Assembly: GCA_026702615.1 (NCBI GenBank)
Contig: JAPPBY010000020.1
Coordinates: 62,001 to 126,000 of the forward strand
DNA from: Chloroflexota bacterium
GTDB lineage: Bacteria > Chloroflexota > Dehalococcoidia > Tepidiformales > Tepidiformaceae
Reading direction: 5' to 3'
DNA length: 64,000 bases
The position numbers and the translations under genes were made by a program. A model generated the notes under the pieces. It had not been told where the DNA came from. It was given only the letters and a program-made list of their open reading frames with translations, and made no database searches. Positions 5,807-63,928 of the stretch are shown one piece after another; position 1 is the first letter of the stretch, and each line of letters opens with the position of its first letter.

Positions 5807-5838
5807 GAGGAAAGCGCTCGCTACGCTCGCTGAGTGGA
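5807..5838 (-). repeat. CTCAG-type repeat, single degenerate unit
   Basis: On the minus strand the unit reads CCACTCAG, then GCGAGCGTAGCGAGCGC, then TTTCCTC. It is nearly identical to the unit before the gene at 62928 and shares the CACTCAG / GCTCTCCT borders of the arrays elsewhere in the window. Confidence 0.7.
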
Positions 5839-5907: not shown

Positions 5908-6001
5908 GCGCCCGCGGATGCTCTCTGCGGGACCAGTACCGGCATTGTCACGTGACGACAGTTGGCCGGTCAACCTCGCGATCTCCTCAGCGAGTGCTTT
6001 C

Positions 6002-6646
6002 CTACGACTCCAGCCAGAGGACGTCGCCGTGCAGGTCGGGGGCGTGGTCGCGGGAAGCGAATACCTCGTATTCCGCCTTGCTGGCGCCGATCGTCGTGTT
6101 GCCGCCGTGGCCGGGCCAGACGGTCGTGTCGTCGGGGAGGGCGTAGAGGCGGGTGGTTATGGACGCGATCTCCTGCTGGAAGAGCTCCCTCGAGCGGGAG
6201 TGGCCGGGACCACCGGGGAAGAGCGTGTCGCCGACGAAGGCGTGGGCGCCGTGGATGAAGGCCGTGCTCGCGGGCGTGTGGCCGGGGATGGAAACGACGT
6301 CGAAGGTGATGCCGCCGACTTTGACGGTGTCGCCGTCGGTAATGACTTCGTCGAGCGTGCCCTCGGGGATCCAGGGCTCTGCCGGGTCGGCGATGAGCCG
6401 GCAGCCGTAGCGCTCCTTGAGCGCGACGATGCTGGCCGTGTGGTCCGGATGCGAGTGGGTCAGCAGGATGGTGGAGGGTTCGATGCCGGCGAACTCGACG
6501 GCGGCGATGCTCTTCTCGACCTCGTCGGGAGCGTCGATAAAGGCGGCCTCGCGAGACGCCTCGTCGATCACGATGTAGATGTTGTTGCCGAATCCGGCGG
6601 GCCCGGCCCGCACGATCCCGAGATCGCCATCGACCAGCTTCTCCAT
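6002..6646 (-). CDS. MBL-fold metallo-hydrolase (glyoxalase II-like)
   Basis: Metallo-beta-lactamase-fold hydrolase (214 aa from ATG 6646, preceded by AGGGGGGA). Seen: the dinuclear metal motif LLTHSHPDHT, the later ligands SIPGHTPAS and VGDTLFPGGPG, and VWPGHGGNTTIG near the end. This is the hydroxyacylglutathione-hydrolase-like/YcbL branch of thioester hydrolases. The ORF-track start at 6823 adds about 59 low-complexity residues across the intergenic region and is rejected. The hicAB pair lies upstream in the same direction; a thiol-ester substrate is inferred only from the family. Confidence 0.9.
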   Translation of the reverse strand: MEKLVDGDLGIVRAGPAGFGNNIYIVIDEASREAAFIDAPDEVEKSIAAVEFAGIEPSTILLTHSHPDHTASIVALKERYGCRLIADPAEPWIPEGTLDEVITDGDTVKVGGITFDVVSIPGHTPASTAFIHGAHAFVGDTLFPGGPGHSRSRELFQQEIASITTRLYALPDDTTVWPGHGGNTTIGASKAEYEVFASRDHAPDLHGDVLWLES

Positions 6647-19102: not shown

Positions 19103-19219
19103 CACTCAGCGGCGCGACAGCGACGCACTACACTCAGGCAGCGCAAGCTGCCGCCCTCCTCAGCGAAGCGCGGAGCGCGAGCGCTCCACTCAGCCGCGCG
19201 GGAGGGCGGCGCTCTCCTC
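19103..19219. repeat. Array of CTCAG-type hairpin modules (4 units)
   Basis: Units start with CACTCAG or CTCAG and end with GCTC(T/C)CCT or a variant. Unit 2 has GGCAGC-GCAA-GCTGCC, a perfect stem with a GNRA-type loop; unit 1 is a one-mismatch version of the first unit at 56411; unit 3 is a longer AGCGAAGCGC variant; unit 4 is GCCGC...GCGGC and forms the 3' end of the portal gene, including its stop codon. The same borders recur at three other loci. Confidence 0.75.
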
Positions 19220-48379: not shown

Positions 48380-50775
48380 TCCGGGAACGTCACTCTGTGG
48401 AGTCTGTCGAACGCCGAAACGAGTAGGTCACCGTCAGGAGTCAGGGCGATTGCAAGAGGCGGAAGGCGGAAGCGGAACGAGCTCTGATCTCCGACGATCG
48501 CGACCTCCCCATCCGTGGTGATCCGGACGACCCGCCGGAAGACGAGATCGACCACGTACGCGGTGCCATCACTCTCGACAACGATTCCCCTGGGATCGTG
48601 CGAGAGCACCCCCCCGTACATCCCGGGAATGTCCTCAAGCACGGTGGCTACGGAACCGCTCGCGTCGATTCTGCTAACCGTAGCGGTCCGCCACAGCCTG
48701 GTGAGCAAGTAGATCTGGCCCTCCCCGTCCACGTCCATGCCGGTCACCCGCCCGGGCACCGCTGCCACTACCGAGAACGCTCCGTCCGGCGAGAGACGCC
48801 AGATCTCCGTGCCCTGCGTGCTCGCCCCCTCCCTGTAAGGAACATGGGCATCGCGGGTCCCGTAGAGGTTGCCGTCCCCATCCGTCGTGAGCTTCACGTT
48901 TCTGTCCAGCGACAGGCTGTCGGGTGTGCCGAGGGTTGAGACCTCGCCGTCGGTCCCGATTCGGCGAATAGCGTTGTTGCCGACATCCGCCACATAGACC
49001 ACCCCATCGGCGTCCACGGCAACGCTCCACGGGAGGGAGAACTGCGCTGCGGCCGAGGGGCCGTCCACGAATCCCTCCTCGCCCGTCCCGGCGAACGTCT
49101 GCACGAGGCCGCTCGGCCCGAGGCGGTCGATCCGGTGTGCGAACGAGAATGGCGCGATCACAACGCCGGAAGGCGTCACTTCCATGTCGACCGACAGGAA
49201 GTTGCCGGTCTGCGGAACCGCGCTGATCGTGATGCCTTCGACCCGGGGGAACGGCTCCAGCTCCGCGAGCGGCACGGTCGTCGTCGGGAGGCCCCCGCGA
49301 CCCAGCTGGATGGCGCGGACGACGGTGGCGTCCTGATCGGCCACGAACAGGACGCCCCGGCTTGAGAGCGCGAGCGACCCGGGGAGGTTGAAGGTCGCCT
49401 CGGCGCGAGAGCCGTCGGCATGGCCCCTGTCGCCGGAGCCGGCCACGCCCTCGAGTTGGCCGGCACGCGTGATGCGGACCACCTGGTTCAGCCCGGTGTT
49501 GGAGAGGTAGACCGCGCCGTTCCCCGCCGCCACGATCCCGTGCGGCGTGGCAAGCGCTCCGCCGAACGCCATTTGACTGCTCCGGTAGATCGTGCGGACC
49601 CTCCCGCTGTCGTCGATCACCCGAACAATCGCCGCCGGAATACCCTCTTCCTGGGCAATTTCGTTCCTCTCGAGCGTGTAGATGTTGCCCGCGTCATCTA
49701 CGGTAATGGCCCGTAAGCCCCTGAATTGAGCCGACAGCCTCGGGCCATCGCGATCGCCTTCTGAGTCGCCCCCCGCGAAAGTCGTGACCTCGCCCGCCGG
49801 CGAAAGGCGCCTGATCTTCGTTCCGGCCTCGGCGATGTAGAGGTCGCCCTGGGGCCCCAGCGCGATCCCGTGGAGCGTCTTGAAGAGGGCGGCGGCGGCA
49901 GGCCCGTCGCGGGACTCCTCCCGGATGTTGGGCTGCTCGGTGCCCGCGATCGTGCTGACGATCCCCTCCGGCGTGATCTTGCGGATGCGCCGGTTGTACG
50001 AGTCTGCAACATAGATGTTGCCGTCGGCATCCACGGCAACGCCGCTCGGGCCGTTGAACTGCGCCTGGGCACCGGCGCCGTCCAGCAGCCCGCTCACTTC
50101 ACCACCCGCGATCGTGGTGACCGTCCCGTCGGCCGCAACCCGCCGGATCACGTCGTTGTTGAAATCCGCGACGATCACGCTCCCGTCCCGGTCCGCGGCC
50201 AGGGCCAGGTCGGAGGGCTCGGCGAAGAGCGTGTCCCGCCCGAATCGCGCGTTGGCGCCCTGGCCGTCCCGCGCGCCGTACACGCCCGCACGGCCCGCCA
50301 GCGTCGAGACCTCTGCGGGTGGCACCGGCACGTCGAGCGCGATGTCGCCGAACTGGAAGGTGCCGCTGCTGCTGAAGCCGTCGTCGAGCGGCAGCGCGAT
50401 CGTGCCCAGGGTGCGCCACGAGCCGTCCGCCGGACGCGCGCTGATGTACACGCGGCTCAGGTCCCGCACCCGCTGCCACACCCGCACCTCGACCGTCGCC
50501 GGAACCGCTCGGCCCGGCAGGGGCACATCGAGGTCGATATCGCCGTAGGCGAACGTGCCGCTGTCGGTCGTCTCGTCCAGGGGCAGCGGGATTGTCCCGA
50601 GCGTCCGCCACGAACCGCCCGCCGGGCGCGCGCTGATGCGGATGTCCTCAAGATCCCCGACGTTCTGCCAGACGCGCACCTCGACCGTGGCCGTTCGTTC
50701 AGCCTGCGCCGAACCCACAGCCACCACAACGACACCCAGCAGCGCCGCCAGCACCACGAGCGTCAACCGTCTCAC
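48376..50775 (-). CDS. Secreted NHL-repeat propeller protein, first paralogue
   Basis: 799 aa, first gene of the three-gene operon. Signal peptide LTLVVLAALLGVVVVAVGSAQA; two TATVEVRVWQ modules; then about a dozen NHL-like blades (SGVAVDADGNIYVADSYNRRIRKITPEGIVSTIAG; SVAVDADGVVYVADVGNNAIRRIGTDGEVSTLG). GTG start; a TATGGT -10 lies about 27 nt upstream. Predicted extracellular, with two six- or seven-bladed propellers by length. No enzymatic motif seen. Confidence 0.88.
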   Translation of the reverse strand: MRRLTLVVLAALLGVVVVAVGSAQAERTATVEVRVWQNVGDLEDIRISARPAGGSWRTLGTIPLPLDETTDSGTFAYGDIDLDVPLPGRAVPATVEVRVWQRVRDLSRVYISARPADGSWRTLGTIALPLDDGFSSSGTFQFGDIALDVPVPPAEVSTLAGRAGVYGARDGQGANARFGRDTLFAEPSDLALAADRDGSVIVADFNNDVIRRVAADGTVTTIAGGEVSGLLDGAGAQAQFNGPSGVAVDADGNIYVADSYNRRIRKITPEGIVSTIAGTEQPNIREESRDGPAAAALFKTLHGIALGPQGDLYIAEAGTKIRRLSPAGEVTTFAGGDSEGDRDGPRLSAQFRGLRAITVDDAGNIYTLERNEIAQEEGIPAAIVRVIDDSGRVRTIYRSSQMAFGGALATPHGIVAAGNGAVYLSNTGLNQVVRITRAGQLEGVAGSGDRGHADGSRAEATFNLPGSLALSSRGVLFVADQDATVVRAIQLGRGGLPTTTVPLAELEPFPRVEGITISAVPQTGNFLSVDMEVTPSGVVIAPFSFAHRIDRLGPSGLVQTFAGTGEEGFVDGPSAAAQFSLPWSVAVDADGVVYVADVGNNAIRRIGTDGEVSTLGTPDSLSLDRNVKLTTDGDGNLYGTRDAHVPYREGASTQGTEIWRLSPDGAFSVVAAVPGRVTGMDVDGEGQIYLLTRLWRTATVSRIDASGSVATVLEDIPGMYGGVLSHDPRGIVVESDGTAYVVDLVFRRVVRITTDGEVAIVGDQSSFRFRLPPLAIALTPDGDLLVSAFDRLHRVTFPE

Positions 50776-50878
50776 GCATCACCGCCGCGAGGCATCCGCG
50801 CGACCATAGCAGAACGTGCAGCGGAATTTCCCCATCCCCCCTGCGCGACCGACCGGACGCTCGCCATCGCTCGCCATC

Positions 50879-50884
50879 TATGAT
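50879..50884 (+). promoter_or_regulatory. -10 box for the 247-aa membrane protein (leaderless)
   Basis: TATGAT ends 6 nt before the GTG at 50891. Confidence 0.55.
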
Positions 50885-50890
50885 TGGCGC

Positions 50891-51634
50891 GTGGCACTCG
50901 AAGAGCCCCTGACGCCGCCCTCGCCGTCGAGACGGCGGCTCGTCGCGCCCGTGACGGCGGCCGTGCTCGTGCTGGCGCTGCTCGTCGGGGGCGGAATCGT
51001 GGCCTTCGTCGTCTCGCAGTCGGCCGGCAGCGACGCGCCGCCCGAAGCGGGGCCGTTCGTGACGCCGCCGCCCGCCAACCCCGCCGCCACCTTCGACGTG
51101 CGCGAGGCGAACGGCGCGACGCTCACGCTGCTTCCCGCCAACATCGAGGGGGATGCGTTCACCGCAACGCTCTCCCCGGGCGTGACGCTCGAGGCGTTCG
51201 TCCCGGGCCTCCCGTCCCGCATCGAGCCGGGCACCTGGCTCACCTTCATCGGCGAGCGGGACCCGGTGCGCAACTACGTCATCCGCCAGGTGATCGCCAT
51301 CCGCAACGCGGGGCCGCACGGAGGCGACGGTCTCGGGCGCTCACCGGCGGGCTTCACGGGCGTCGAGATGCTGAGCAACCCGAACCACCGGCCTGTCCTC
51401 TGGGGCCGGGTCGAATCCATCACGGTCTACCCCAGCGACGGCGGCGCCGATGTCGTCCTGGCCGGTCCCGACGGACCCATCACGGTGGAGATACTGGCGC
51501 GCGTGCCCCTTTCCTTCGTCGAGCCCTACGACGCGCCCATCACCGACGGCGACCACATCGCCATCCTCGCCCCCGCCGGCACCAGCCCCGCCGGCGCCGG
51601 TGCCATCCTCGTCTCCCCCCAGGGCGCCCGCTAG
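50891..51634 (+). CDS. Membrane-anchored protein of unknown function (DUF5666-like layout)
   Basis: 247 aa from the GTG supported by the -10. One TM helix at residues 19-43 (LVAPVTAAVLVLALLVGGGIVAFVV), a Pro/Ala spacer, then two similar beta-barrel-like segments: NGATLTLLPANIEGDAFTATLSPGVTLEAFVPGLPSRIEPGTWLTFIG and VESITVYPSDGGADVVLAGPDGPITVEILARVPL...GDHIAILA, recalling DUF5666/OB-like repeats. The track start 25 codons earlier would precede the promoter. Convergent with the next gene (4 nt overlap). Function unknown. Confidence 0.72.
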   Translation: MALEEPLTPPSPSRRRLVAPVTAAVLVLALLVGGGIVAFVVSQSAGSDAPPEAGPFVTPPPANPAATFDVREANGATLTLLPANIEGDAFTATLSPGVTLEAFVPGLPSRIEPGTWLTFIGERDPVRNYVIRQVIAIRNAGPHGGDGLGRSPAGFTGVEMLSNPNHRPVLWGRVESITVYPSDGGADVVLAGPDGPITVEILARVPLSFVEPYDAPITDGDHIAILAPAGTSPAGAGAILVSPQGAR

Positions 51635-52893
51635 TCGGGCGCTGGCGCGGGGCGGGCTGTCCAGAAGTGGTAGTACTCCTCCTGTGATCCGTCCGCTTCT
51701 GGATCGAACCCCTCCGGCAGGGACAGTCCTTCGACTTCATGGACGCTCCCCGACTCCAGGTCGAAGAGCGCAATCCCTGCGGTGTACTGCATGCCGGCGC
51801 CGTGGGACCGAATCTCCTGGACGAGCACTCCCCCCACTGCACAACTGGGGGTCTCTCGGATGGTCGTTCCGCCGGGCGCACTGGCCCACAGCGGTTCGCT
51901 CGTGCCGTAGACCCGCCGGACCGCCCCCTCCTCGTCCACAAGCGCAAGCAGGCGGTCACCCTGCGCCACGGCCGTCCACGGAAACGCCCCGTTGGAACAG
52001 CGGTCCGCCGGCCGCCAGCTCACATTCCCCAACGCCGGAGGGCTCGGAGCGGTTGGGGGCACGTCCGCCTCGCCGGACACTATCCATCGGGTCCGGCTCT
52101 CCCATCCCTCGCGCCCGCCTGGCACCAGGTGCGAGAGACGCGCCCACATCTCCTCCCACTCGGAGTCGGTCAAGGAGCCCAGGGTCTCGCGCCTCCCCCA
52201 CAGGTTCCACTCTTGGACCAGCACGTCTGTCTCCGTTACCTCCAGAATCCACGCGCCCGGCAGCACCTCACCGGCATTGCTCCAGGTCGAGCCAGCATTG
52301 TGGGACACCCACACATGCTCCACTGCGTCGGCGCTGGGGTGGCCCACTCCCAACTCGCACAGGCCGGCGCTGCAGATTGCGGCGGCCATCTCCTGACCGC
52401 TGTGGCTGATGGCAGCGCTCTCCACCATGCCTTTCACGTCGAAGAAGACCAGCGGCCGATCCTCGCGATACTCACCCAGCGCCTCATCGAACAGAATCCG
52501 CCTGAGGTCGCCGAACCCGTAGCCGCACGAGGTGCAAGGACCCACCCGGTAATAGAGCGCGATGTCCGCAGGCAGCGGGCGCGGCTCGCCCCGCGTGATG
52601 GGTATGAACTCGATGCCGTGTGGCCCCGGCGTGGGGGTTGGCGTGGCGGTGGGAGACGGTGCGGGGCTCGGGGTGGACACCGGTGTGGCAGCTGGGGTCG
52701 AGACAGCGGTCGCCGTGGGCGTGGCGACCGGCGTTGGGGTAGCGGTGGGGTCGGGCGACGGGCTCGCCGCTGCTGTAGGAGACTGATGCGCCGGGCCCGG
52801 GGCGGGAGGGATGCTCTCCCCGCCACACGCGGCCGCTGCGAGGGGAAGCAGGCAGGCGAACAGCGGGAGAGAGGCACGAGCCCGGCGCATCAT
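51631..52893 (-). CDS. Lipoprotein with Pro/Thr-rich linker and BNR-like repeat
   Basis: 420 aa from ATG 52893 (second ATG adjacent). Lipobox LPLFACLLPLAAAAC, a spacer of about 60 residues rich in Thr-Pro, then a beta-rich domain with an Asp-box-like motif VSHNAGSTWSNAGE and DRLLALVDEEGAVRRVYG, suggesting a sialidase-type propeller without visible catalytic residues. CTSCGYGFGD contains a CxxC pair. A TAGGGT -10 ends 7 nt before the ATG. Surface-exposed, unknown role. Confidence 0.78.
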   Translation of the reverse strand: MMRRARASLPLFACLLPLAAAACGGESIPPAPGPAHQSPTAAASPSPDPTATPTPVATPTATAVSTPAATPVSTPSPAPSPTATPTPTPGPHGIEFIPITRGEPRPLPADIALYYRVGPCTSCGYGFGDLRRILFDEALGEYREDRPLVFFDVKGMVESAAISHSGQEMAAAICSAGLCELGVGHPSADAVEHVWVSHNAGSTWSNAGEVLPGAWILEVTETDVLVQEWNLWGRRETLGSLTDSEWEEMWARLSHLVPGGREGWESRTRWIVSGEADVPPTAPSPPALGNVSWRPADRCSNGAFPWTAVAQGDRLLALVDEEGAVRRVYGTSEPLWASAPGGTTIRETPSCAVGGVLVQEIRSHGAGMQYTAGIALFDLESGSVHEVEGLSLPEGFDPEADGSQEEYYHFWTARPAPAPD

Positions 52894-52900
52894 GGGGCCC

Positions 52901-52906
52901 ACCCTA
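52901..52906 (-). promoter_or_regulatory. -10 box of the BNR-like lipoprotein gene (leaderless)
   Basis: TAGGGT on the minus strand ends 7 nt before the ATG at 52893. Confidence 0.5.
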
Positions 52907-52952
52907 GCCAGCGAAAGGCCGAATTACCCCGTCCGTTTTCGAACTTTGCCCA

Positions 52953-52974
52953 CCCAGCCGGCGGCGCTCTCCTA
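52953..52974. repeat. Degenerate CTCAG-type unit at the permease 3' end
   Basis: CACCCAG, CCGGCGGC and GCTCTCCT follow the module borders with one change in CACTCAG and a shortened stem. It reaches into the stop codon of the FtsX-type permease. Confidence 0.4.
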
Positions 52975-55900
52975 CTCCGTGCGCAGGACGGCCGCGTCGG
53001 AGGTGCGCGAGAGGGCCTGAACCGTCGCGACGAGCGCCACGGCGAACACCGCCGCCACCGCCGCCGCGCCCACGATGACGAAAGTCCACTCCGTCTGCAG
53101 CACGAACCCCGGTTCGACGGGCAGGCCCGCCTCCGTCACATCGAGGAAGGAGAGCATGCGCCGCCCCACGAACTGCCCGACGAGCACGCCCGCGGCCACG
53201 CCCACCACCCCCACGATGGCGTACTCCAGGCCAAGTACGGCCATCACCTGCCGGCGCGTCAGCCCGATGGCCCCGAGCACCGCGAACTCGATCCGCCGTC
53301 GCTGGATCGCCATCCACAGCGAAACGAGCAACGCCACCGCCACCAGCACCAGCGTGGCCACGAACGAGACGGAGAGGATGCCGGTTCCGCTCGCCGCGAT
53401 CAGCGGGTTCGAACGCACCGCCTCAAGCGTCGCTTCCTGGTCCACGACACGCCGCAGACCCAGCTCGTCCAGCGCCTCGAATATGTGCCGGCGGTTGGCG
53501 TCCGGCGCCAGGTCGAGCCACACCTCGTTCGCACGCGAGAGGTCGCCCGGGACCGTGCTGACCATGTAGCCCCAGCGCAGGAGCTGGTCGCGGTTGAGCA
53601 CGACGGAGGGGCCGTCGAGGGCGGGAAGGGTGGGGAATCGTTCGTACACGCCCCGCACGACGACGGGCACGATGATGTTGTCGATCTCGAGCAGGTCCTC
53701 GTCGCCGATCTCCAGCCGATTCCGTTCGAGGAAGGCCTCGCTCGCGAGGATCGGCATGGGGATGCCGCGGTCGGCGGGGAAGAGGCCGCGCCGCTCCCCC
53801 GTGGTGCCGCGCCGGAAGCCGAGGCGCGCCGCCTGCGACCCCGACCGCACCTCCTCGCGGGACAGCTGAAGGCTATCCGTGAACCGCTCGGCGCTGGGGA
53901 CGGCCTCCCAGCGGACGACCCCTTCGAAGCCCTCCAGCAGGTTCAGGGTTCCGTCGGGGTCCACGGAGGAGAGGTCATCGATGTAGACGGGCTCGTCGCT
54001 CGCATTGAACTGGTTCGCGGGCTCCGTGAGGATGAGCGCGACCAGCACGAGCGGCTCCTGCAGCGGGCGGAACTGCTCGTCGTGCACGACTGCCCGCATC
54101 TCCTGCCAACCCTTGAAGTCGAGCTTTCCGAAGGGCAGCAGGTCGTGCCGGCCGGTGGCGTCCCGCACGCGCGCCCAGATCGTCACGGTGGCGCGTTCGA
54201 TCGCGGGGTTCACCCACACGGAGAGCTCGGTCGAGCCCGGCGGGATGGGCATGCCGCGCAGGATCTCGCCGCTGTCGACGCGGTCGAGGATGGCTTCGAG
54301 CGGGCGATCGGCGAAGTCCTCCCGCCACCAGAGCAGGTCGCCCGCGTCCCCGTCGATGGCGAGCACGGCCACTTCGGGCCCGGAGCTGTTGGGCGTGGCG
54401 ATAGCGCCCTGCAGCCTCAGGACGGCAGAGACGTCGTCCACGCCCTCAATCCCGCCGACCTGGTCCTCCAGCCGTGTCGGGTCGGCGGGCAGGAAGGTGG
54501 TGTCGCCGGCGAGTGCGCGTACCTCAACCCCTGAGGCGAAGCGCGCGCGGTCCTCGTAAGAGCGTTCCGTCGTGCTCGTGTAGCTGGCGGCGAACATGCC
54601 GACCGCCACGGCCATCATCAGGAGCAGGGCGAGCTGGGTGTAGGGTCCCGGCCGCCGCACGAGCTGCCAGAGGCCCATCGCCACGGCCACCCCGGCCACG
54701 CGACCGGCAACCGCCACGACGGCGCGCAACGCGATCGGGTAGAGGCGGGCCAGCACCGCCGCGGCGGCGGCGATGATCAGCGCAGGCGAGGCGAGCAGGA
54801 GCGGGTCGCTCGTGACGCCGCCGGTGGCGGAGGGCGTGTACACCGAATTGCGTTCGTTCAGCTCCCAGAGGGCCAGCAGGGCGAACCCCACGAGCACGAC
54901 GTCGAGGTAGTAGCGCTGGATCAGGCCGGCCGTCGGACGGGCGAGCGCGCGTCGCTGTCCCTGCGGCCCGCGCCGTGCGACGAGGAACGCCGGGGCCGTG
55001 AGGGCGACGATCGAGAGCGCGGCCCCGAGCGCCGCCAAGGGGAAGGCGAGCGGATCGAAGGAGACTGGCAGCGGCTGGCCGCCGGAGATGTCGCTGAACA
55101 CGGGCGTGAACCCGAGGAGCGCGGTCACGCCCGCGGCGATGAAGGGCGCCACGAGGATGGCGGGCAGGCCCAGGGCGAGCCCTTCGAGGGCGTAGAGGCC
55201 GACCACCTGCGCCGTGCTCGACCCGCGGCCGCGCAGCAGCGCGATCTGCTCGCCCTGGCGCTCCACCACCGCCACGGAGATCAGCGCCACGTAGAACAGC
55301 GCGATCGCCGCGATCTGGATCAGCAGGATGGTGAGCGGCGCCCGCTGGAAGTCCGCGCTCCGTCCGAAGGCGTCGAGCGTGACCGTGAGCTGGCTGGTCG
55401 CGTATCCGTTGTAGATGCGGAGGTCCTGGTTGAGCGCCAGGATGTCCTCGCGCGCCCGCTCGAAATTGCCCTGGTCGAGCTGGTCGATGTCGGCGAGCAC
55501 GTTCCAGCGCAGCGTCAGCTTCTGCCCCGGATAGCGCACCGCCAGGTCGCCGAGGACGGCGTCGACGTGCGCGACCATGGGCGAGACCAGGCCCGAGTCG
55601 GCGATCGGGGCGGAGGGCATCACGTAGCGGTCGCTGATCGCCGCCCAGAACGACGCGTCCGGATTCTCGACCGCGATGATGCCCGTGAGCACCGCGGGCA
55701 CGGAGTAGCGCGCGCGCACCTGCAGGTCGCACGGGAGCTGCGGCTGCAGCCCCTGCGGGATGATGCGGTCGCAGTTGTCGATCTCCTCGATCAGGAGGAA
55801 ATGGTCGCCGGGGGCGAGCCGCGCCACCGCGGCCGCACGGGCGCCCATCGCGACTTCCAGCGGCGCGTCGGGGCCGCCGGGCGCCGGCAGGTGTCCCTCC

Positions 55901-56322
55901 AGCACGGTGACGTGCTGCTCGAACCCCTCGAGCGCGTAGAGCACGCCAAGCGGGTTGCTGGTTCGCGACTCCTCGCCCGTCCGCCCGATCGTGAGCCGCG
56001 CCGACTCGACGACGACCGAGCGTTCGTACGCAAACCATCCCAGCCGCTCGTCGATCCGCTGCTCCACGGCGTCGCGTACGGCGAGGGAGTCGGGCGTGGC
56101 CAGCTGCTGCGCCTCGATGCCGGCGCGGATGGAGGGTTCGCCGCGCAGCTCGTCGCGCACGGTGAACTTGAGGCCGAGGTCGGCCATGGCGCGGGCGTAG
56201 ATGGGTGCGCTGGCCAGCAGGGTCGAAGCCACCAGCACGCCGAGGGCGAGCACCGCCAGCATCCGCCAGCTGGCGAAGACGTGGCGCAACAGCAGCGCCC
56301 AGAGGACGGCAAGGCTCCCCAT
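52972..56322 (-). CDS. Giant FtsX-like ABC transporter permease (1116 aa)
   Basis: MacB/FtsX-type permease with an N-terminal TM helix (AVLWALLLRHVFASWRMLAVLALGVLVASTLL), a large extracytoplasmic domain, a block of four or more TM helices (LTILLIQIAAIALFYVALISVAVVERQGEQIALLRGRGSS), a second extracytoplasmic domain and a final three-helix FtsX domain (VSFVATLVLVAVALLVSLWMAIQRRRIEFAVLGAIGLTRRQV). This duplicated layout suits export or extraction of lipoproteins or large envelope molecules rather than import. It has no ATPase of its own strand and may share those of the divergent operon. Confidence 0.9.
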   Translation of the reverse strand: MGSLAVLWALLLRHVFASWRMLAVLALGVLVASTLLASAPIYARAMADLGLKFTVRDELRGEPSIRAGIEAQQLATPDSLAVRDAVEQRIDERLGWFAYERSVVVESARLTIGRTGEESRTSNPLGVLYALEGFEQHVTVLEGHLPAPGGPDAPLEVAMGARAAAVARLAPGDHFLLIEEIDNCDRIIPQGLQPQLPCDLQVRARYSVPAVLTGIIAVENPDASFWAAISDRYVMPSAPIADSGLVSPMVAHVDAVLGDLAVRYPGQKLTLRWNVLADIDQLDQGNFERAREDILALNQDLRIYNGYATSQLTVTLDAFGRSADFQRAPLTILLIQIAAIALFYVALISVAVVERQGEQIALLRGRGSSTAQVVGLYALEGLALGLPAILVAPFIAAGVTALLGFTPVFSDISGGQPLPVSFDPLAFPLAALGAALSIVALTAPAFLVARRGPQGQRRALARPTAGLIQRYYLDVVLVGFALLALWELNERNSVYTPSATGGVTSDPLLLASPALIIAAAAAVLARLYPIALRAVVAVAGRVAGVAVAMGLWQLVRRPGPYTQLALLLMMAVAVGMFAASYTSTTERSYEDRARFASGVEVRALAGDTTFLPADPTRLEDQVGGIEGVDDVSAVLRLQGAIATPNSSGPEVAVLAIDGDAGDLLWWREDFADRPLEAILDRVDSGEILRGMPIPPGSTELSVWVNPAIERATVTIWARVRDATGRHDLLPFGKLDFKGWQEMRAVVHDEQFRPLQEPLVLVALILTEPANQFNASDEPVYIDDLSSVDPDGTLNLLEGFEGVVRWEAVPSAERFTDSLQLSREEVRSGSQAARLGFRRGTTGERRGLFPADRGIPMPILASEAFLERNRLEIGDEDLLEIDNIIVPVVVRGVYERFPTLPALDGPSVVLNRDQLLRWGYMVSTVPGDLSRANEVWLDLAPDANRRHIFEALDELGLRRVVDQEATLEAVRSNPLIAASGTGILSVSFVATLVLVAVALLVSLWMAIQRRRIEFAVLGAIGLTRRQVMAVLGLEYAIVGVVGVAAGVLVGQFVGRRMLSFLDVTEAGLPVEPGFVLQTEWTFVIVGAAAVAAVFAVALVATVQALSRTSDAAVLRTE

Positions 56323-56410
56323 GCGCGCACAAGGGTAGCGGTCCCGGCCCCTTCAGCGCTCCCCCGGGCTTGTACCGTTGCATCGGGCTGAGCTGAGGCT
56401 GCCCGCCGAC
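56323..56410. promoter_or_regulatory. Divergent permease promoter region, left part
   Basis: On the minus strand TACCCT (56332-56337) ends 9 nt before the permease ATG. The remainder holds no ORF. Confidence 0.35.
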
Positions 56411-56560
56411 CACTCAGCGTCGCGCCAGCGACGCGCTCCACTCAGGCGGGCCACGCCCGCCGCTCTCCTCAGCGAAGCGCCCCGCGAGCGCGCAGCAGTC
56501 GAGCGCAGAATTACGGCGCAAGCGCTCCACTCAGCCGCGCGTTAGCGCGGCGCTCTCCTG
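56411..56560. repeat. Array of CTCAG-type hairpin modules (4 units)
   Basis: Best-preserved array. Stems: GCGTCGC-GCCA-GCGACGC, GGCGGGC-CAC-GCCCGCC and GCCGCGC-GTTA-GCGCGGC, each a perfect 7-bp stem with a 3-4-nt loop, plus a longer imperfect unit containing GCGCGCAGCAGTCGAGCGC. Units are joined by GCTC-CACTCAG or GCTCTCCTCAG. The last unit ends directly at the TACGCT -10 of the next gene. Stem sequences differ while borders and geometry are kept, as in compensatory evolution. Confidence 0.85.
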
Positions 56561-56566
56561 TACGCT
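56561..56566 (+). promoter_or_regulatory. -10 box of the second permease operon
   Basis: TACGCT abuts the last CTCAG-type hairpin unit and ends 12 nt before the ATG. Confidence 0.45.
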
Positions 56567-56578
56567 GTCCGCTGCTCC

Positions 56579-59500
56579 ATGACAAGCTTCGCCTCCCTCC
56601 TCCGGATCGTCGCCCAGCGAAGCCTCGCCAACTGGCGGCTGCTCGCCACCGTCATCTTCGGCATGGTGCTCGCCTCCGCCCTCATGTCGAGCGTCATCCT
56701 CTACTCCGACGCCGTGCGCGACCTCGGCCTCAGTTTCACCCTCCGCCAGCAGGACCCCCTCGAACTCGACCTCAAGGTCGTCAGCAACAGCCAGCCGGGC
56801 GAACCCGACATCTACCGGGAACGGCGCGACACCACCTTCTCGCTGCTGCGGCGCTACGGCGGGGGCATCATCGAGGACACGGGGCTCTACGCGCGCACCT
56901 CCACCTTCTTCCTGGCCGAGCCCGGCGTCCCCATCGACTACGACGACGACCTGCGCGCCCGCGCTCACTTCCTCTTCTTCTCCGATGTCGAGGAACACGT
57001 GACCCTCGTCGAGGGAGCCGCTCCCACCCCCACGCCCCCCACCACCGACGTTTTCCAGCGCCCCAGCATCGAGGTCTGGATGAGCGCCACCGCCGCCCGC
57101 GGCCTCGGCGTCGGCCCGGGCGAAACCTTCGACCTTCAACCCTTCTGGCGCGAGGACGTCGATCCCGTGGAGATCACGATCGTCGGGCTCGTCGAGCCGA
57201 ACGATCCCGAGGAGGAGTACTGGTTCGGCAACGCCCACCGCCTCGTGGTCGACACCACGCGCTGGCCGACGTTCCCCTTCATCATCGACGAGCGCACGTT
57301 TGTTGAGGTGATCGCCCCCTACCTGCCGTCCATCGACGGCACCTTCGAGACCTTCGCCTTCATCGACACCGAGCGGGTCAACAGCCGCAACGCGGAGCGC
57401 TACGAACGCAACCTGCGCGCCCTCGACCGCGCGATCCGAGCGGAGCTCGAGCTGTCCGTGCTCCGCACAGAGCTGCCCGACGTCATCTTCGAGTACCAGG
57501 AGAAGCTGTTCTTCACGCGGCTGCCGCTCTTCGCGCTCATGCTCCTCATCGTCGGCATCGCCCTCTACTACCTGGTGCTGGTGGCGACGATGCTGGTCGA
57601 GCGCCAGGCGGGCGAGATCGCGCTCCTCAAGAGCCGCGGCGCAGGCCTCGGCCAGATCATGACGGTCTACCTGGTCGAGGGGTCGGCGCTCACGATCTTC
57701 GCAGTCGTTCTCGGACCGCTCGTGGCCGCCGGCGTGATCCGCCTGCTCGGCCCCACGCCGCCCTTCGCCGACCTGAGCCAGGGCGATCTGCTGAGCGTCA
57801 CGCTCACCGCCGAGGCCTTCGGCATGGCCGCGCTCGGGGCCGTGCTCGCCCTCGTCGCCCTCCTCTGGCCCGCCTACCGCGCCTCCGGGGCGAGCGTGGT
57901 GCACTACAAGCAGAGCCTCGCCCGTCCCCCGAAGCAGCCCCTCTTTCTGCGCTACTACCTCGACCTGGTGCTCGTGGGCGTGGGCGCCTTCCTCTTCTAC
58001 CAGCTGCGCCAGCGCGGCTCGCTCGTGACCGAGAACCTCTTCGGCGACCTCTCCGCCGACCCGCTCCTCCTCGTCTCACCGGCGCTCTTCACGCTCATGA
58101 TCGCGCTCGTCTTCCTGCGCCTCTTCCCGGTCGTGCTGCGCGTGGCCTCGTGGGCGCTGCGCGGTCTGAGCGGGGCCACCATCCTGCTCGGCCTCTGGCG
58201 CATGGTGCGGAGCCCGCTCCACTACAGCCGCCTCATCCTCCTGCTCCTGCTGGCGACCTCCGTGGGCATGTTTGCCGCGGGATTCCGGGCCACGCTCGAC
58301 CGCAGCTTCGAGGACCGCGCCGCCTACGAGGCGGGCGCTCCGGGCCGCGTGGTCGATATCCGCACGCCCTCGCGCCTCTCCCCGGAGCGGATGGAGGAGT
58401 TCTTCGAGTCGATGGACGGTCTCGGCGAGGCCAGCGCCGCCGCGCGTATGGAGGTCTCCTACGTGCCCACCGCCGCCCGCTCCGTCTCCGCCCAGCTCCT
58501 TGGCGTCGGCGAGAACTTTGCCGACGTCGCCTTCTGGCGGAACGACTTCGGCGGTGACCTCCCCTCGCTCCTCGCCGGCCTCCAGCCCGGCGAGGACGCG
58601 GAGTTGCCCGACGGCGCCGTCGTGCCCGCCGGCTCCCGCGCCCTCGGCATCTGGACCCGCATCTCCCTCCCCGGCAACGCCGCCCGCCCCGGCATCCGCG
58701 TGCGCGACGGGAACGGCCTCCTCTACGAGTACCTGTTCGTGAGCGACCCGGTCGAGGAAGACGACGGCTGGCTTCTCTACGTTGTCGACCTCACCCGCCC
58801 CTTCAACCCCCGCAACAGCCCGCCCGACCTGACCGGCGAGCTCGAAGTCGAATCCGTCTTCCTCAGCGTCCGCCGCTTCGCCGCCGCCCCCGGCCGGGTG
58901 ACCGCCGTGCTCGACAACCTCGTCGCTTACCCCGAGGGCGGGGACCGCGACGACGCCGTCACCATCGAGCCCTTCGAGTCGCTCGACCGCTACCAGTCGA
59001 TCACCGGCGCCTCGGGGTCGGCGCAAACGACGATCACGCGCGCCGAGGTCGACAACGACCGGGGACGCTACGCCGCCCAGGTCAGCTTCAACTACGACAG
59101 CTTCTCCGTGACCGCGGTGGGGCTGCGCCTGCGCCGCTCCCCCGAGCCCCTGCCCGTGCTCGCCAGCGAGTCGTTCCTCGACGCTACCGGCGTCGCCCCG
59201 GGCGATACCTTCCCCCTGCGCGTGAACCGTCAGGTGCTGACGGCGCGCGTCGCCGGCTCGTTCGAGCTCTTCCCCGGCTACTACCCCGGCGGCCGCGACC
59301 ACTTGCTCGTCGCCGACCTGCCCACGCTGCGGGGCGCGGGCGCGGGCATCCCGCGCGTGGCCGGCGGCATCACGCCGAACGAGGTCTGGCTGGGCACCGT
59401 CGAGGGGGTCGAGCTCACGCCCGAGTGGCTCGAGGAGCAGGGCATCCGCGCCGGCCAGGTCCACGACGAAGCCGCCCTCTTCGCCCTCGAGTCCTCCGAC

Positions 59501-59941
59501 CCGCTCGTCGCCGCCAGCTGGGAAGGCATCCTCTTCCTCTCCTTCGGCGCGGTCCTGCTGCTCACGGCCCTCGGCTTCATCGTCTTCTCCTACCTGGCCG
59601 CGCAGACGCGCTCGCTGGAGTTCGCCATCCTCCGCACGATGGGCTTCTCCGGGCGCCAGATCGTGGGGGTGGTCGGGTTCGAGCAGCTCTTCGTGATCGT
59701 CGCCGGGGTAGCCGCCGGCACCGCCCTCGGCTTCCCCCTGGGACGCCTCATGATCGGCGCCCTCGCCCTCACCGAGGACGGCAGCGACGTGGTCCCGCCC
59801 CTCCTTTCGCAGGTAAGCTGGGAGACCGTGCTCTCCGTTTACGGCCTGCTCGCGCTCGTTTTCATCGCCACCGTGGCCGCCCTGGCGCGGCTCTACTCGC
59901 GGCTGGCCCTGCACCGCGCCCTGCGCATCGGCGAGCTTTAG
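56579..59941 (+). CDS. Giant FtsX-like ABC transporter permease (1120 aa)
   Basis: Paralogue of the divergent permease with the same duplicated plan: an N-terminal TM helix (LLATVIFGMVLASALMSSVILYSDAV), an extracytoplasmic domain, a TM block including LPLFALMLLIVGIALYYLVLVATMLVERQAGEIALLKSRGA, a second extracytoplasmic domain and a C-terminal FtsX domain (LTALGFIVFSYLAAQTRSLEFAILRTMGFSGRQIVGVVGFEQLFVI). First gene of an operon with two ATPases (9-nt gap to the first). Substrate unknown; the LolCDE/MacB relatives export lipoproteins, peptides or lipids. Confidence 0.92.
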   Translation: MTSFASLLRIVAQRSLANWRLLATVIFGMVLASALMSSVILYSDAVRDLGLSFTLRQQDPLELDLKVVSNSQPGEPDIYRERRDTTFSLLRRYGGGIIEDTGLYARTSTFFLAEPGVPIDYDDDLRARAHFLFFSDVEEHVTLVEGAAPTPTPPTTDVFQRPSIEVWMSATAARGLGVGPGETFDLQPFWREDVDPVEITIVGLVEPNDPEEEYWFGNAHRLVVDTTRWPTFPFIIDERTFVEVIAPYLPSIDGTFETFAFIDTERVNSRNAERYERNLRALDRAIRAELELSVLRTELPDVIFEYQEKLFFTRLPLFALMLLIVGIALYYLVLVATMLVERQAGEIALLKSRGAGLGQIMTVYLVEGSALTIFAVVLGPLVAAGVIRLLGPTPPFADLSQGDLLSVTLTAEAFGMAALGAVLALVALLWPAYRASGASVVHYKQSLARPPKQPLFLRYYLDLVLVGVGAFLFYQLRQRGSLVTENLFGDLSADPLLLVSPALFTLMIALVFLRLFPVVLRVASWALRGLSGATILLGLWRMVRSPLHYSRLILLLLLATSVGMFAAGFRATLDRSFEDRAAYEAGAPGRVVDIRTPSRLSPERMEEFFESMDGLGEASAAARMEVSYVPTAARSVSAQLLGVGENFADVAFWRNDFGGDLPSLLAGLQPGEDAELPDGAVVPAGSRALGIWTRISLPGNAARPGIRVRDGNGLLYEYLFVSDPVEEDDGWLLYVVDLTRPFNPRNSPPDLTGELEVESVFLSVRRFAAAPGRVTAVLDNLVAYPEGGDRDDAVTIEPFESLDRYQSITGASGSAQTTITRAEVDNDRGRYAAQVSFNYDSFSVTAVGLRLRRSPEPLPVLASESFLDATGVAPGDTFPLRVNRQVLTARVAGSFELFPGYYPGGRDHLLVADLPTLRGAGAGIPRVAGGITPNEVWLGTVEGVELTPEWLEEQGIRAGQVHDEAALFALESSDPLVAASWEGILFLSFGAVLLLTALGFIVFSYLAAQTRSLEFAILRTMGFSGRQIVGVVGFEQLFVIVAGVAAGTALGFPLGRLMIGALALTEDGSDVVPPLLSQVSWETVLSVYGLLALVFIATVAALARLYSRLALHRALRIGEL

Positions 59942-59950
59942 GACGGCCGC

Positions 59951-60868
59951 ATGACCACCTTCCCCGACACCGAAACCGAGGCCCCTCCCTACATCGTCTG
60001 CGAGGACCTCTTCAAGATTCACAAGAGCGACGAGCTCGAGGTTGTCGCCCTGCGCGGGCTCGACCTGAAGGTGCGCGGGGGCGAGCTGATGGCGATCGTC
60101 GGCGCTTCCGGCTCCGGCAAGAGCACCCTGCTCAACATCCTCGCCGGGCTCGATCAGCCCAGCGCCGGCCGCGCCTTCGTCGGCGGACGCGACCTCCTCA
60201 CCATGACCGAGGCCGAGATGGTGAGCTACCGCCGCAAGGACGTCGGCTTCATCTGGCAGCAGACGGGGCGCAACCTCATCCCCTACCTCTCCGCCACGCA
60301 GAACGTCGAGCTGCCCCTCATGCTCGACGGCGTCGAGGCCGGGGCAGCCCGCGAGCGCGCCGACGAGCTCCTCGAAGCGGTGAGCCTGACGCACCGGCGC
60401 GAGCACCACCCCGAGCAGCTCTCGGGCGGAGAGCAGCAGCGCGTCTCCATCGCCGTCGCGCTCGCCAACCAGCCGCCCCTCCTCCTCGCCGACGAGCCTA
60501 CCGGCGAGCTCGACGCCATCGGGGCCGACAGCGTCTACGAGGTGCTCGGCGACCTGAACGCTCGCTACGGCGTCACCGTCATCATCGTCACCCACGACCC
60601 CGAGATCGCCTCGCGCGTGAACCGCGTCGTCGCCATCCGCGACGGGCGCACGAGCATGGAGATCTTCCGCCGAGTGGAGCAGACAGGCGGCGTCACGCAT
60701 GTCGTCCACGACGAGTACGTGCTCGTCGATTCCGCCGGACGCCTGCAGGTGCCGCGCGAGTTCCTCGACCGCCTCAGCATCAGCGAGCGGGCCAAGCTCT
60801 TCCTGGGCGAAGGGCGCGTCGAGGTGCTGCCCGACCGCGTCCACCGCGTCGGCGGGGAGGACGCCTGA
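59951..60868 (+). CDS. ABC transporter ATP-binding protein with C-terminal AbrB-like tail
   Basis: 305 aa MacB/LolD-type ATPase. Walker A GASGSGKSTLLNILAG, Q-loop WQQTGRNLIPYLSATQNVELPL, signature LSGGEQQRVSIAVAL, Walker B LLLADEPTGELD, H-loop IIVTHDPEIA. The family normally ends near residue 225; here a 75-residue tail includes YVLVDSAGRLQVPREFLDRLSISERAKL, which resembles a MazE/AbrB swapped-hairpin half and may mediate dimerisation. Q-loop Trp-Gln-Gln replaces the usual Phe-Gln. Confidence 0.94.
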   Translation: MTTFPDTETEAPPYIVCEDLFKIHKSDELEVVALRGLDLKVRGGELMAIVGASGSGKSTLLNILAGLDQPSAGRAFVGGRDLLTMTEAEMVSYRRKDVGFIWQQTGRNLIPYLSATQNVELPLMLDGVEAGAARERADELLEAVSLTHRREHHPEQLSGGEQQRVSIAVALANQPPLLLADEPTGELDAIGADSVYEVLGDLNARYGVTVIIVTHDPEIASRVNRVVAIRDGRTSMEIFRRVEQTGGVTHVVHDEYVLVDSAGRLQVPREFLDRLSISERAKLFLGEGRVEVLPDRVHRVGGEDA

Positions 60869-61761
60869 TGGCCGGGGCGGCAGTCGAGCTGCGCAACGTC
60901 TCCCGCCTCTTCGAGCTGGGCTCGGAGGAGGTCTGGGCCGTGCGCGACATCAGCCTCAGCGTCGAGCCGGGCGAGTTCCTCGCCCTCATCGGACGCTCCG
61001 GCTCGGGCAAGACGACCCTGCTCAACACCATCGCCGGCCTCGATCGCCCCACCGACGGGGAGGTCGAGATCGACGGCGAGCGCGTCGATACGATGAGCGA
61101 GGCGGAGCTGATCGCGCTCCGCCGCCAGAAGCTCGGCTTCATCTTCCAGTCGTTCGGCCTCCTCCCGCTCCTCTCGGCCCAGGAGAACGTGGAACTGCCC
61201 CTGCGCATCGCCGGCGTGCACCGCGACCGCCCCTCCCGCGCCCGCGAAGTGCTGGAGCTGGTCGGCCTCGAGCGGCGCGCCCACCACCGCCCCTACGAAC
61301 TCTCCGGCGGCGAGCAGCAGCGCGTCGCCATCGCCCGCGCGCTGGTGACCGAGCCCACGCTCGTGCTCGCTGACGAGCCCACGGGCGAGCTTGATTCCGC
61401 CACCGCCACCGCCGTCTTCACCCTCATCCGCGACATCTGCCGCGAGCGCGGCGTCTCCATCATCACCTGCACGCACGACCGGCTCGTGATGGAGATGGCG
61501 AGCCGCGTCGAGGAGTTGGAGGACGGCCATCTCGTGACCGGCCACCGGGGCGACGTCTGGGGCCGGGTGCAGTCGCGCGAACGCACCCCCTTCGAGGCGC
61601 CCGCGGGCGAGGACGAGGCCAGCCAGTCCCTCCCCTCCCTCATCGGCGCCGACACCCGCAACTTCGGCGTGGCCGACACCGAACCCGAGCCGGAACCCGA
61701 GCCCGAGGAACCCGAAGAGGTCGACGACATCCCCGAGGACCGCTGGGCGCGCCCTACGTAG
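60868..61761 (+). CDS. ABC transporter ATP-binding protein, MacB/LolD type
   Basis: 297 aa, start overlapping the previous stop (TGATG). Walker A GRSGSGKTTLLNTIAG, Q-loop FIFQSFGLLPLLSAQENVELPL, signature LSGGEQQRVAIARAL, Walker B LVLADEPTGELDS, H-loop ITCTHDRLV. After residue 225 comes an acidic, disordered tail with EPEPEPEPEEPEE. With its partner it could form a heterodimer energising one or both permeases. Confidence 0.94.
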   Translation: MAGAAVELRNVSRLFELGSEEVWAVRDISLSVEPGEFLALIGRSGSGKTTLLNTIAGLDRPTDGEVEIDGERVDTMSEAELIALRRQKLGFIFQSFGLLPLLSAQENVELPLRIAGVHRDRPSRAREVLELVGLERRAHHRPYELSGGEQQRVAIARALVTEPTLVLADEPTGELDSATATAVFTLIRDICRERGVSIITCTHDRLVMEMASRVEELEDGHLVTGHRGDVWGRVQSRERTPFEAPAGEDEASQSLPSLIGADTRNFGVADTEPEPEPEPEEPEEVDDIPEDRWARPT

Positions 61762-61768
61762 CGCCGCC

Positions 61769-61796
61769 TTGACACTTACTTGACACCATATACGGT
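61769..61796 (+). promoter_or_regulatory. Promoter of the second hicAB pair
   Basis: TTGACA, 16-bp spacer, TACGGT, with a second TTGACA 11 bp further on. The -10 lies inside the palindromic operator. Confidence 0.6.
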
Positions 61797-61800
61797 GTCA
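61781..61800. promoter_or_regulatory. Palindromic operator of the second hicAB pair
   Basis: TGACACC-n6-GGTGTCA, perfect 7-6-7 inverted repeat covering the -10. It has the same geometry but a different sequence from the first hicAB operator, fitting HicB autorepression with separate specificity. Confidence 0.75.
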
Positions 61801-61814
61801 GCCACGCTGGTTCT

Positions 61815-62048
61815 GTGCGAACGCTCGCGGAGCTGAGGGCTCTCCGCCAACGAGCAGGGAACCTCCGTTCTCGGGAACTCTTCTCGCTCCTCGAGGAACA
61901 GGGCTATGCGCGGGAGCGAACCACCGGGGGTCACCACATCTATACCCGTACCGGGGCACGACGCCCCATCGTCGTGCCGGACCGGATCCGCACAGCGAAT
62001 ACAGTTCGTGGCGTTATCAACAGGCTAATTCGAGAACTGGAGGACTGA
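61815..62048 (+). CDS. hicA: HicA family mRNA interferase toxin (second locus)
   Basis: 77 aa. The catalytic His is in RTTGGHHIYTRTG, with ELFSLLEEQGYARE before and TANTVRGVINRLI after, as in HicA. GTG start. Directly followed by its antitoxin with one base between. Low similarity to the first HicA, so the two loci are unlikely to be a recent duplication. Confidence 0.85.
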   Translation: MRTLAELRALRQRAGNLRSRELFSLLEEQGYARERTTGGHHIYTRTGARRPIVVPDRIRTANTVRGVINRLIRELED

Positions 62049-62049
62049 T

Positions 62050-62424
62050 ATGCAAACCGCCGACTACCTCGAACTCCCTTATCACCGCGTCATCCAACCG
62101 GACGAGGGCGGGTATTGGTCCGCCCATGTCCTGGAGCTCGACGGGGTCTTCAGCGAAGGCGAGAGCGCTGCCCAGGCGGCGGAAAACCTGAACGTCGCGA
62201 TGGGCCTCTGGATTGACCATGAACTCGCCGAGGGGCACCCGATCCCCAGTCCGTGGGGCGCCAACCGTTCTGGCGAAGTCCGCCTTCGCCTGCCCAGGTC
62301 GCTTCACGCCAGCGCCGCCCTGCGCGCCAAGATCGAAGGAGTCTCGCTGAACTACCTGATCGCCACTGCCCTCACGACCTACCTGACGCAATCCACTGCG
62401 TCGTCAGAGAGGGCTGCCAGCTAG
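62050..62424 (+). CDS. hicB: HicB family antitoxin (second locus)
   Basis: 124 aa. HicB fold (LPYHRVIQPDEGGYWSAHVLELDGVFSEGESAAQAAENLNVAMGLWID) plus a C-terminal DNA-binding segment RLPRSLHASAALRAKIEGVSLNYLIATALTTYL of ribbon-helix-helix type. Neutralises HicA and probably binds the palindrome upstream. ATG one base after the hicA stop. Both members are intact. Confidence 0.88.
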   Translation: MQTADYLELPYHRVIQPDEGGYWSAHVLELDGVFSEGESAAQAAENLNVAMGLWIDHELAEGHPIPSPWGANRSGEVRLRLPRSLHASAALRAKIEGVSLNYLIATALTTYLTQSTASSERAAS

Positions 62425-62433
62425 AACCCGTCG

Positions 62434-62733: not shown

Positions 62734-62763
62734 CGCCCCGGCATGGTACTCGCGCCCGCAACC

Positions 62764-62913
62764 CACTCAGCCGCGCGGCCCCGCGACGCATCACTCAGGC
62801 GGCGAAGCCGCCGCTCTCCTCAGCCGCGCATCGCGAGCGCGCAGCGGTCGAGCGCACGAATCCATGGCGGCGCTCTCCTCTTTACTCAGCGAGCGAAGCG
62901 AGCGCTCTCCTCC
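62764..62913. repeat. Array of CTCAG-type hairpin modules (4 units)
   Basis: Unit 2 is GGCGGC-GAA-GCCGCC; unit 1 is degenerate; unit 3 is the long variant with GCGCGCAGCGGTCGAGCGCA, shared with the array at 56411; unit 4 is GCGAGCGAAGCGAGCG, nearly the same as the single unit before folE. It fills the space upstream of the gene at 62928 and ends 2 nt before its TTACACT -10 region. Confidence 0.8.
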
Positions 62914-62915
62914 GT

Positions 62916-62921
62916 TACACT
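62916..62921 (+). promoter_or_regulatory. -10 box for the SCP2-like gene (leaderless)
   Basis: TACACT ends 6 nt before the ATG at 62928, immediately after the repeat array. Confidence 0.55.
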
Positions 62922-62927
62922 CTCCCC

Positions 62928-63877: not shown

Positions 63878-63884
63878 CGCCCCA

Positions 63885-63890
63885 ACTGTA
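63885..63890 (-). promoter_or_regulatory. -10 box of the 176-aa gene (leaderless)
   Basis: TACAGT on the minus strand ends 7 nt before the ATG at 63877. Confidence 0.5.
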
Positions 63891-63914
63891 AGCGAACGTG
63901 ACCGCCCGGCGGTC

Positions 63915-63920: not shown

Positions 63921-63928
63921 GCCACCGA

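Follow-up and report, generated by a model that had tools for sequence, protein, structure and literature searches.

What is the run of four GC-rich hairpins that starts at position 56411, and how can its borders stay fixed while its stems differ from copy to copy? The locus lies in a stretch of 64,000 nucleotides of Chloroflexota DNA (the window). A first-pass annotation had described it as one of several arrays of modular intergenic hairpins, bordered by CACTCAG and GCTCTCCT, and had offered two explanations: selection on structure, or a mobile palindromic element of the REP/BIME kind.

Hairpin units in the window

By reading the sequence, we found the arrays at 19103, 56411 and 62764 on the + strand, exactly where they had been annotated. 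The single unit at 5807, on the - strand, and the decayed copy at 52953 are equally genuine, the latter being the last hairpin of an array at ~52953-52973 (Table 1). The copies listed in the annotation are thus real, but a half unit at ~5986-6003 (+) and two other kinds of hairpin, described below, had been overlooked.

Table 1. Hairpin copies in the window, with their composition and surroundings
Feature	Position	Strand	Composition	Surroundings
Single hairpin unit	5807..5836	-	CACTCAG-CGAGCGTAGCGAG-CGCTTTCCT	GTP cyclohydrolase I gene (5187-5771, -), its 5' end facing the right end of the unit; on the left, a degenerate upstream half unit
Half unit	5986..6003	+	CTCAGCGAGTGCTTTCCTA	Right end enters the TAG stop of gene 6002-6646 (-); left end turned towards that of the 5807 unit
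Array A4	19103..19218	+	Four hairpins	Between convergent DUF2269 gene (18592-19056, +) and SPP1-type portal gene (19190-20503, -); orthologues in G001, G003 and G004 have different hairpins
Decayed array	52953..52973	+	Right half of last hairpin + CTCTCC	Ends at the stop codon (TAG) of an FtsX-type gene (52972-56322, -); orthologous places in G004 (L165) and G007 (L223) hold full arrays
Array A1	56411..56559	+	Four hairpins, third long	Flanked by two divergent FtsX-type genes; a TACGCT box 1-2 nt beyond the right end, and the ATG at 56579 19 nt beyond it
Array A3	62764..62911	+	Four hairpins, third long	Flanked by divergent genes; TACACT 4-5 nt beyond the right end, with the ATG at 62928 another 6 nt past TACACT

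A longer variant containing GCGAGCGCGCAGC(A/G)GTCGAGCG had been said to be common to two arrays. This 22-nt repeat is indeed found inside the long third hairpins of the 56411 and 62764 arrays, at 56485-56508 (A1) and 62835-62858 (A3). This repeat or a similar sequence is also seen at L028 and L026, at L028 at the start of a coding sequence.

The gene that directly adjoins array A4 on its right encodes an SPP1-type phage portal protein (PF05133). Since the place beside the portal gene is occupied by an array in three relatives too, the gene may be part of a stable prophage remnant or a gene transfer agent.

Borders, stem and loop of the unit

Read along the CTCAG strand, a unit opens with CTCAG, continues with a GC stem of 5-6 bp around a loop of 3-4 nt, and closes with CGCTC plus two linker letters. 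Such units lie at all the places named. The borders first proposed need correction: the true ones are CTCAG on the left and CGCTC(TC/CA/TT) on the right; the CACTCAG and GCTCTCCT forms belong to the array ends and to one of the linkers. Taken alone, both strings are near chance in the 64-kb window (11 CACTCAG found vs 7.4 expected; 8 GCTCTCCT found vs 3.5 expected). Border, stem and border together greatly exceed chance, and the combination ACTCAG-N(8-26)-GCTCTCCT occurs 15 times in the genome, compared to once for a reversed control.

Our first alignment retained stemmed units alone, and this bias was removed by picking cores by their borders only, with no stem required. Among 112 distinct cores of 13-17 nt obtained in this way from the genus, 79 fold with a perfect outer stem of 5 bp or more, compared to 1.5% of shuffled cores, in agreement with modular units held between fixed borders. 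In 33 distinct units of the source genome, all six stem pairs covary, with both sides changing, and the covariation score is 0.73, whereas shuffling gives 0.16 and sliding the partner no more than 0.17. Pairing is seen in 98.5% of the cells of this alignment, a figure inflated by the fact that the units had been pre-selected for pairing. Compensation is also seen within orthologous hairpins: the first hairpin of the 56411 array reads CGTCGC-GCCA-GCGACG in the source genome and CGCCGC-GACA-GCGGCG in its relative G004, a stepwise change. The stems therefore vary in compensating fashion well above chance, as had been claimed.

What this covariation means is another matter. The differences between stem pairs are mostly C-G to G-C, and G-U cells are very few. 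So many swaps without intermediates do not necessarily point to selection on RNA, and an exchange of entire hairpins accounts for them no less well than compensation in single steps. We considered whether the covariation could be mutational altogether, with template switching copying one arm onto the other, unequal recombination at CTCAG shuffling the hairpins, and the borders persisting because the element is young. The C-G to G-C swaps, the turnover of hairpins at orthologous sites and losses that spare the last hairpin, as recombination between CTCAG copies would, are all consistent with this explanation. However, arm copying cannot explain why the linkers retain position-specific letters, nor why the G and A of the loop are kept on one strand only while the middle is free, and we regard a purely mutational origin as improbable.

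The loop itself is informative. In the border-picked set, 35 of 47 distinct tetraloops are GNNA (30 GNYA and 5 GNRA), and loops closed by a C-G pair, C(GNNA)G, make up 43 of 64 in a looser set. The loop G and A are conserved and the two middle bases vary, on the CTCAG strand only. As the third base is mostly a pyrimidine, the loop is unlike the RNA GNRA type. In DNA, C(GNNA)G forms a very stable loop, and the tetraloops described here match that motif, although we found no support for its unusual stability in the open-access literature. By computed energy, as DNA or as RNA, the CTCAG strand has no more than a slight advantage; it is the loop sequence, not the energy, that carries the strand argument. 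Two other kinds of hairpin accompany the standard one: CGAGCGNAGCGAGCG, a mirror-like, imperfect palindrome with a GNA triloop, and C(G/A)A(A/G)-stem-GAG.

A composite element of four hairpins

When the genome was searched by BLAST with the 56411 array as query, about 19 array loci were recovered; parsed by hand, the 2.87-Mb source genome proved to contain ~64 units in 19 arrays. The two outcomes that the annotation named as refuting it, few copies elsewhere and stems without covariation, were therefore not observed. The element measures ~115 bp and has four hairpins running in one direction: CACTCAG-H1-CTC(TC/CA)CTCAG-H2-CTCT(C/T)CTCAG-H3-CTCCACTCAG-H4-CTCTCC. Linkers were counted in 27 distinct full arrays, some of which are orthologous to one another and hence not fully independent. 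The second linker is TC or TT in all 27, the third is CA in 25 and CC in 2, and the array ends in TC in 25; the first linker alone is free to be either TC or CA. Positions 2, 3 and 4 are the usual places of the C(G/A)A-stem-GAG and mirror-like CGAGCGNAGCGAGCG hairpins. Position-specific linkers and set hairpin places indicate that the repeated entity is a composite element, found in two common orders, and not a tandem of single-unit copies.

Units inside any array share a single orientation, while whole arrays face each other at A10/A11, A14/A15 and A5/A2. The arrays fold strongly (z -3.8). The closest pair within the genome is ~85% identical, and there are no near-identical recent copies. A MAFFT alignment of whole arrays broke at the third hairpin and was left out of model building.

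Distribution across genomes

For genome searches, a covariance model of the unit (R1) was built. Among the candidates scored per genome, it gave 31 matches in the source genome and 10-42 in each of the other positive genomes of the genus. The family is present in eight of the nine genus genomes; R1 had no match in the ninth, G008 (1.9 Mb). The order comprises a single family, and its 17 other genera, represented by 29 genomes, likewise gave no match. Across the class, an even sample of 294 genomes gave none in the 183 other genera. Since a limited number of candidates was scored per genome, isolated degenerate copies outside the genus could escape the model. The repeat is genus-specific within the sampled class.

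Looser scans yielded nothing further. In a genome contig collection, ACTCAG-N10-30-GCTCTCCT proved too loose a pattern and none of its matches was a real unit; in viral contigs, a pattern of two tandem units matched twice, neither time with hairpins. Against Rfam, the window and 14 array loci gave nothing but tRNAs at curated score, with C/D-box matches below threshold only. Nor is there a description of palindromic or intergenic hairpins with such borders in the open-access literature, in line with the earlier remark that no named family has them.

The Rfam result also bears on whether the arrays encode a structured non-coding RNA, for example a protein-binding RNA of the CsrB/RsmZ kind. Such an RNA would have four hairpins separated by purine-rich, GGA-containing linkers, and on the other strand the linkers CTGAGGAGAGCG and CTGAGTGGAGCG do lie between tandem hairpins. 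We consider this highly improbable. No Rfam family reached the gathering score, no dedicated promoter was found, and some sites lie upstream of two divergent promoters, where they would not be transcribed by their neighbours. In 9 of the 27 full arrays, moreover, the second linker is CTGAGAAGAGC, which lacks GGA; with one array in three affected, a CsrB-like sponge was rated low.

Position relative to genes

Genes were called with a codon-usage gene caller, and right flanks were clustered to give 27 independent right ends. All 27 are intergenic, as the annotation supposed. The nearest gene boundary lies a median of 5 nt from the right end, compared to 80 nt from the left end (p=0.00027). Convergent genes flank 12 of the 27 sites and divergent genes six. 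In the source contig, convergent pairs account for 4 of the 73 gaps that measure 20 nt or more (p=1.5e-5) and, when every adjacent pair is counted, for 19 of 113 (p=0.004). Arrays directly follow two tRNA genes (A13 and A17).

The contact with the neighbouring gene is often exact. A second and looser clustering gave 39 right ends, and at 11 of them the last base of the element is overlapped exactly by the facing gene's TAG stop, reading ...CTCTC[CTA], or TAG-GAGAG on the gene strand. The remaining right ends include some with a stop within a few bases and some with a TAnnnT box within a few nt. Putative boxes, read by eye, are TACACT+6 nt+ATG, TAGAAT+7 nt+ATG and TAAGAT+6 nt+GTG. Stop codons in this DNA are TAG in 57 cases, TGA in 33 and TAA in 6 (n=96). 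With TAG as the main stop, part of the contact with TA follows from adjacency to stop codons; the exact register does not.

T-tract terminators are few in the window.

Turnover of hairpins at orthologous sites

The same intergenic gaps carry arrays in several species, with flanks that are often >90% identical and hairpins that are different. At the A3 site, upstream of the 62928 gene, the source genome and G001, G003, G004, G006, G007 and G002 all differ, with two to five hairpins. Turnover with the site kept was also seen at A4, A6, A8, A9, A10/A11 and A13. G003 is 97% identical to the source genome downstream of the 56411 array, and in G003 only the last hairpin remains at A1, A8 and A9, which is the expected outcome of recombination between CTCAG copies.

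Whole arrays may also be missing from a site. A10/A11 is absent in G008, where the stops of the two convergent genes read CCGTAGGAGTTACTC; A5/A2 is absent in G008 as well, and A7 is absent in G003 and G004. The third array of the L262 region (4241) is found in G007 only, while the source genome, G003, G004 and G006 have a gap of 56-57 bp. Judged from these alignments, it would most simply be a gain in G007, one that replaced ~56 bp of local sequence and was not a plain insertion. We sought target-site duplications at A7, A10/A11, A14/A15 and the L262 sites and found none that was convincing. TA stands on both outer sides of the facing pairs A5/A2 and A10/A11, but the empty site in G008 shows no clean duplication. 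Single arrays have no inverted end, and their left end has no TA.

Several of these places carry further sequence. Between A5 and A2, which face left end to left end (L005/L002), there are several hundred bp with small ORFs. The stretch lies between rpiB-like and thiolase-like genes, is seen in relatives at L172, L184 and L268, and is absent in G008. In G003 (L237, on C28, behind A6), an extra ~1.4 kb with coding sequence stands at the left end of the array; it is absent in the source genome, G001, G004 and G007. Where the source genome has the 56411 array, relatives have an NYN-domain gene (PF01936, E 2e-9), at L223 5850-6770 in G007, L221 in G001 and L227 in G002. The gene has a conserved leader, CCCGTnAGGG...GTTCCCCGTCGT..CCACC..GGTGG..GGCGGGGGTTTTT, which resembles a terminator or attenuator RNA and had no match in Rfam. 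G004 (L220) has two copies of the leader without the NYN gene.

Do the arrays serve the host as boundary elements?

Same gaps bearing arrays across species while the flanks drift, right ends at gene ends with an excess of convergent sites, strong folding and arrays directly behind tRNA genes would all suit an element kept by selection between transcription units, as a bidirectional terminator, an insulator or a protector of mRNA 3' ends. Such a host-useful function is the main rival explanation of the family, but we find it doubtful. Unlike intrinsic terminators, the GC stems are not followed by a U-tract on either strand, there being no T run at the arrays at 19103, 56411 and 62764, and a terminator scan of 50000-64000 was negative at the arrays. 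The six divergent sites of 27 lie upstream of both genes, and which strand of the array is transcribed varies among sites. Thirteen of the 19 convergent pairs in the source contig (C30) overlap or lie at most 10 nt apart without an array, and a single site ranges from two to five hairpins. If the arrays do separate transcription units, they would be an unusual boundary element for compact, GC-rich genomes in which convergent genes mostly overlap.

Probable origin as a mobile palindromic element

Altogether, we lean towards the view that this genus-specific composite palindromic repeat spread in the past, most likely as a non-autonomous element that moved in the form of single-stranded hairpin DNA, with an enzyme that either was not Y1/RAYT or has been lost. 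The element would have spread through the intergenic space of the genus. The strand specificity of the loops and the constancy of the borders suggest that hairpin DNA is recognised in single-stranded form, as it is by Y1 transposases; the strand recognised would probably be the CTCAG strand with its C(GNNA)G loops. The right end, CTCTCC (GGAGAG on the other strand), would join a TA, usually that of a TAG stop or of a -10 TAnnnT box, and the element's own G would rebuild TAG at the joint, leaving the neighbouring gene intact. Insertion of the right end at TA would explain the positions at stop codons and -10 boxes, with genes intact because the G of the element restores TAG. After insertion, hairpins may have been exchanged, deleted or corrected with their pairing retained. 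Any present role, such as a putative separation of transcription units, would be secondary. Of the alternatives offered in the annotation, the palindromic, intergenic and multicopy nature of the hairpins stands, but their covariation need not mean selection on RNA.

A more specific scheme combines these steps: insertion by the right end next to TA, with TAG and -10 boxes preferred and G rebuilding the stop, catalysed by an enzyme unrelated to Y1/RAYT, followed by self-renewal of arrays that exchange hairpins. We offer it tentatively and think it rather unlikely to hold as a whole. Against the mobile origin as such speak the absence of recent near-identical copies, of a clean duplication and of a Y1 mover, and the prevalence of TAG among the stops, which accounts for some of the TA contact. 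Selection would also explain arrays that are kept in place across species. As the left end follows no matching rule and no clean duplication was found, a cut-and-paste TA element would be conjectural.

Small, GC-rich intergenic palindromes in clusters are known in bacteria as REP, BIME and REPIN sequences, which are associated with RAYT proteins and thought to be non-autonomous mobile DNA (PMC8266576, PMC3116915, PMC3733652). They are the closest bacterial kind, and the arrays share with them the clustering, the hairpin on one strand and the conserved flanking motif. The arrays could accordingly be a relic of a classical REP/RAYT (TnpA-REP) system whose transposase was lost and whose palindromes were left; group 3 REPs include perfect palindromes (PMC8266576), and single-strand hairpins, conserved flanks and strand-specific loops would also fit. 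We hold such a relic to be unlikely. The Y1_Tnp domain (PF01797) is absent from all nine genus genomes, which are 89-96% complete, whereas a control search was positive in five reference genomes; transposition by Y1 was rated low because the gene is missing. The borders, CTCAG and CGCTC, contain no GTAG/CGTC tag. Units run head to tail and do not alternate as REP and inverted REP, both borders are fixed while stems are free between units, linkers are position-specific, and there are ~64 units where REPs typically number hundreds. The hairpins therefore match REP/BIME as many-copy intergenic palindromes but have no RAYT gene, tag or alternating orientation, and membership in REP/BIME is not supported. 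The best reading is that the element is REP-like but distinct from REP/BIME, and the family looks like a fast-changing relative in kind of the known bacterial palindromic repeats.

Other systems resemble the arrays in part. In way of life, the closest parallel we found is the mobile GC clusters M1-M4 of yeast mitochondria. These intergenic, GC-rich palindromes of 30-80 bp stand alone or in short tandem arrays of set order, vary from strain to strain and have a proposed TAG target motif (PMC4464245). The likeness lies in ordered palindrome arrays and contact with TAG, and no sequence kinship is claimed; the yeast clusters belong to the AT-rich DNA of a eukaryotic organelle and have class consensus sequences, whereas the stems here are free. 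LIMP and HyLIMP in Lobosphaera mitochondria are lineage-specific palindromes with a fixed loop, and HyLIMP stems change with compensation (PMC4524435). In contrast to the arrays, their stems are built of repeated pentamers or decamers, with neither a four-part architecture nor fixed outer borders. MITEs and Tc1/mariner-IS630 elements are similarly small, non-autonomous and palindromic, and the outer TA of the facing pairs A5/A2 and A10/A11 recalls them, but single arrays have no terminal inverted repeat and no array-flanked transposase was found. Integron attC sites also form single-strand hairpins with fixed borders and variable middles; the borders here contain no GTTRRRY/RYYYAAC cores, however, and no cassette array was found.

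Bacterial palindromic repeats are usually explained by RAYT transposases. A family that has fixed borders, free stems and four hairpins in set order but no such transposase offers a case in which the spread and change of these repeats can be studied without it. The contact with stop codons and -10-like boxes, together with presence and absence among species in nine genomes, makes insertion and loss directly testable.

Minor observations near the arrays

A second simple repeat, of the TGGTGGTCGGTGGTCGG / TAGTGGCTAGT kind, lies beside several arrays (window 19051-19100; L255; L233), and in G004 it stands in place of arrays A14/A15. To the left of array A3, a HicB-type protein is encoded at 62050-62424, and the sequence upstream, from ~61780, includes a small ORF. 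G003 lacks this locus, and its versions in G004, G001 and G007 are shorter; it may thus be a mobile toxin-antitoxin unit.
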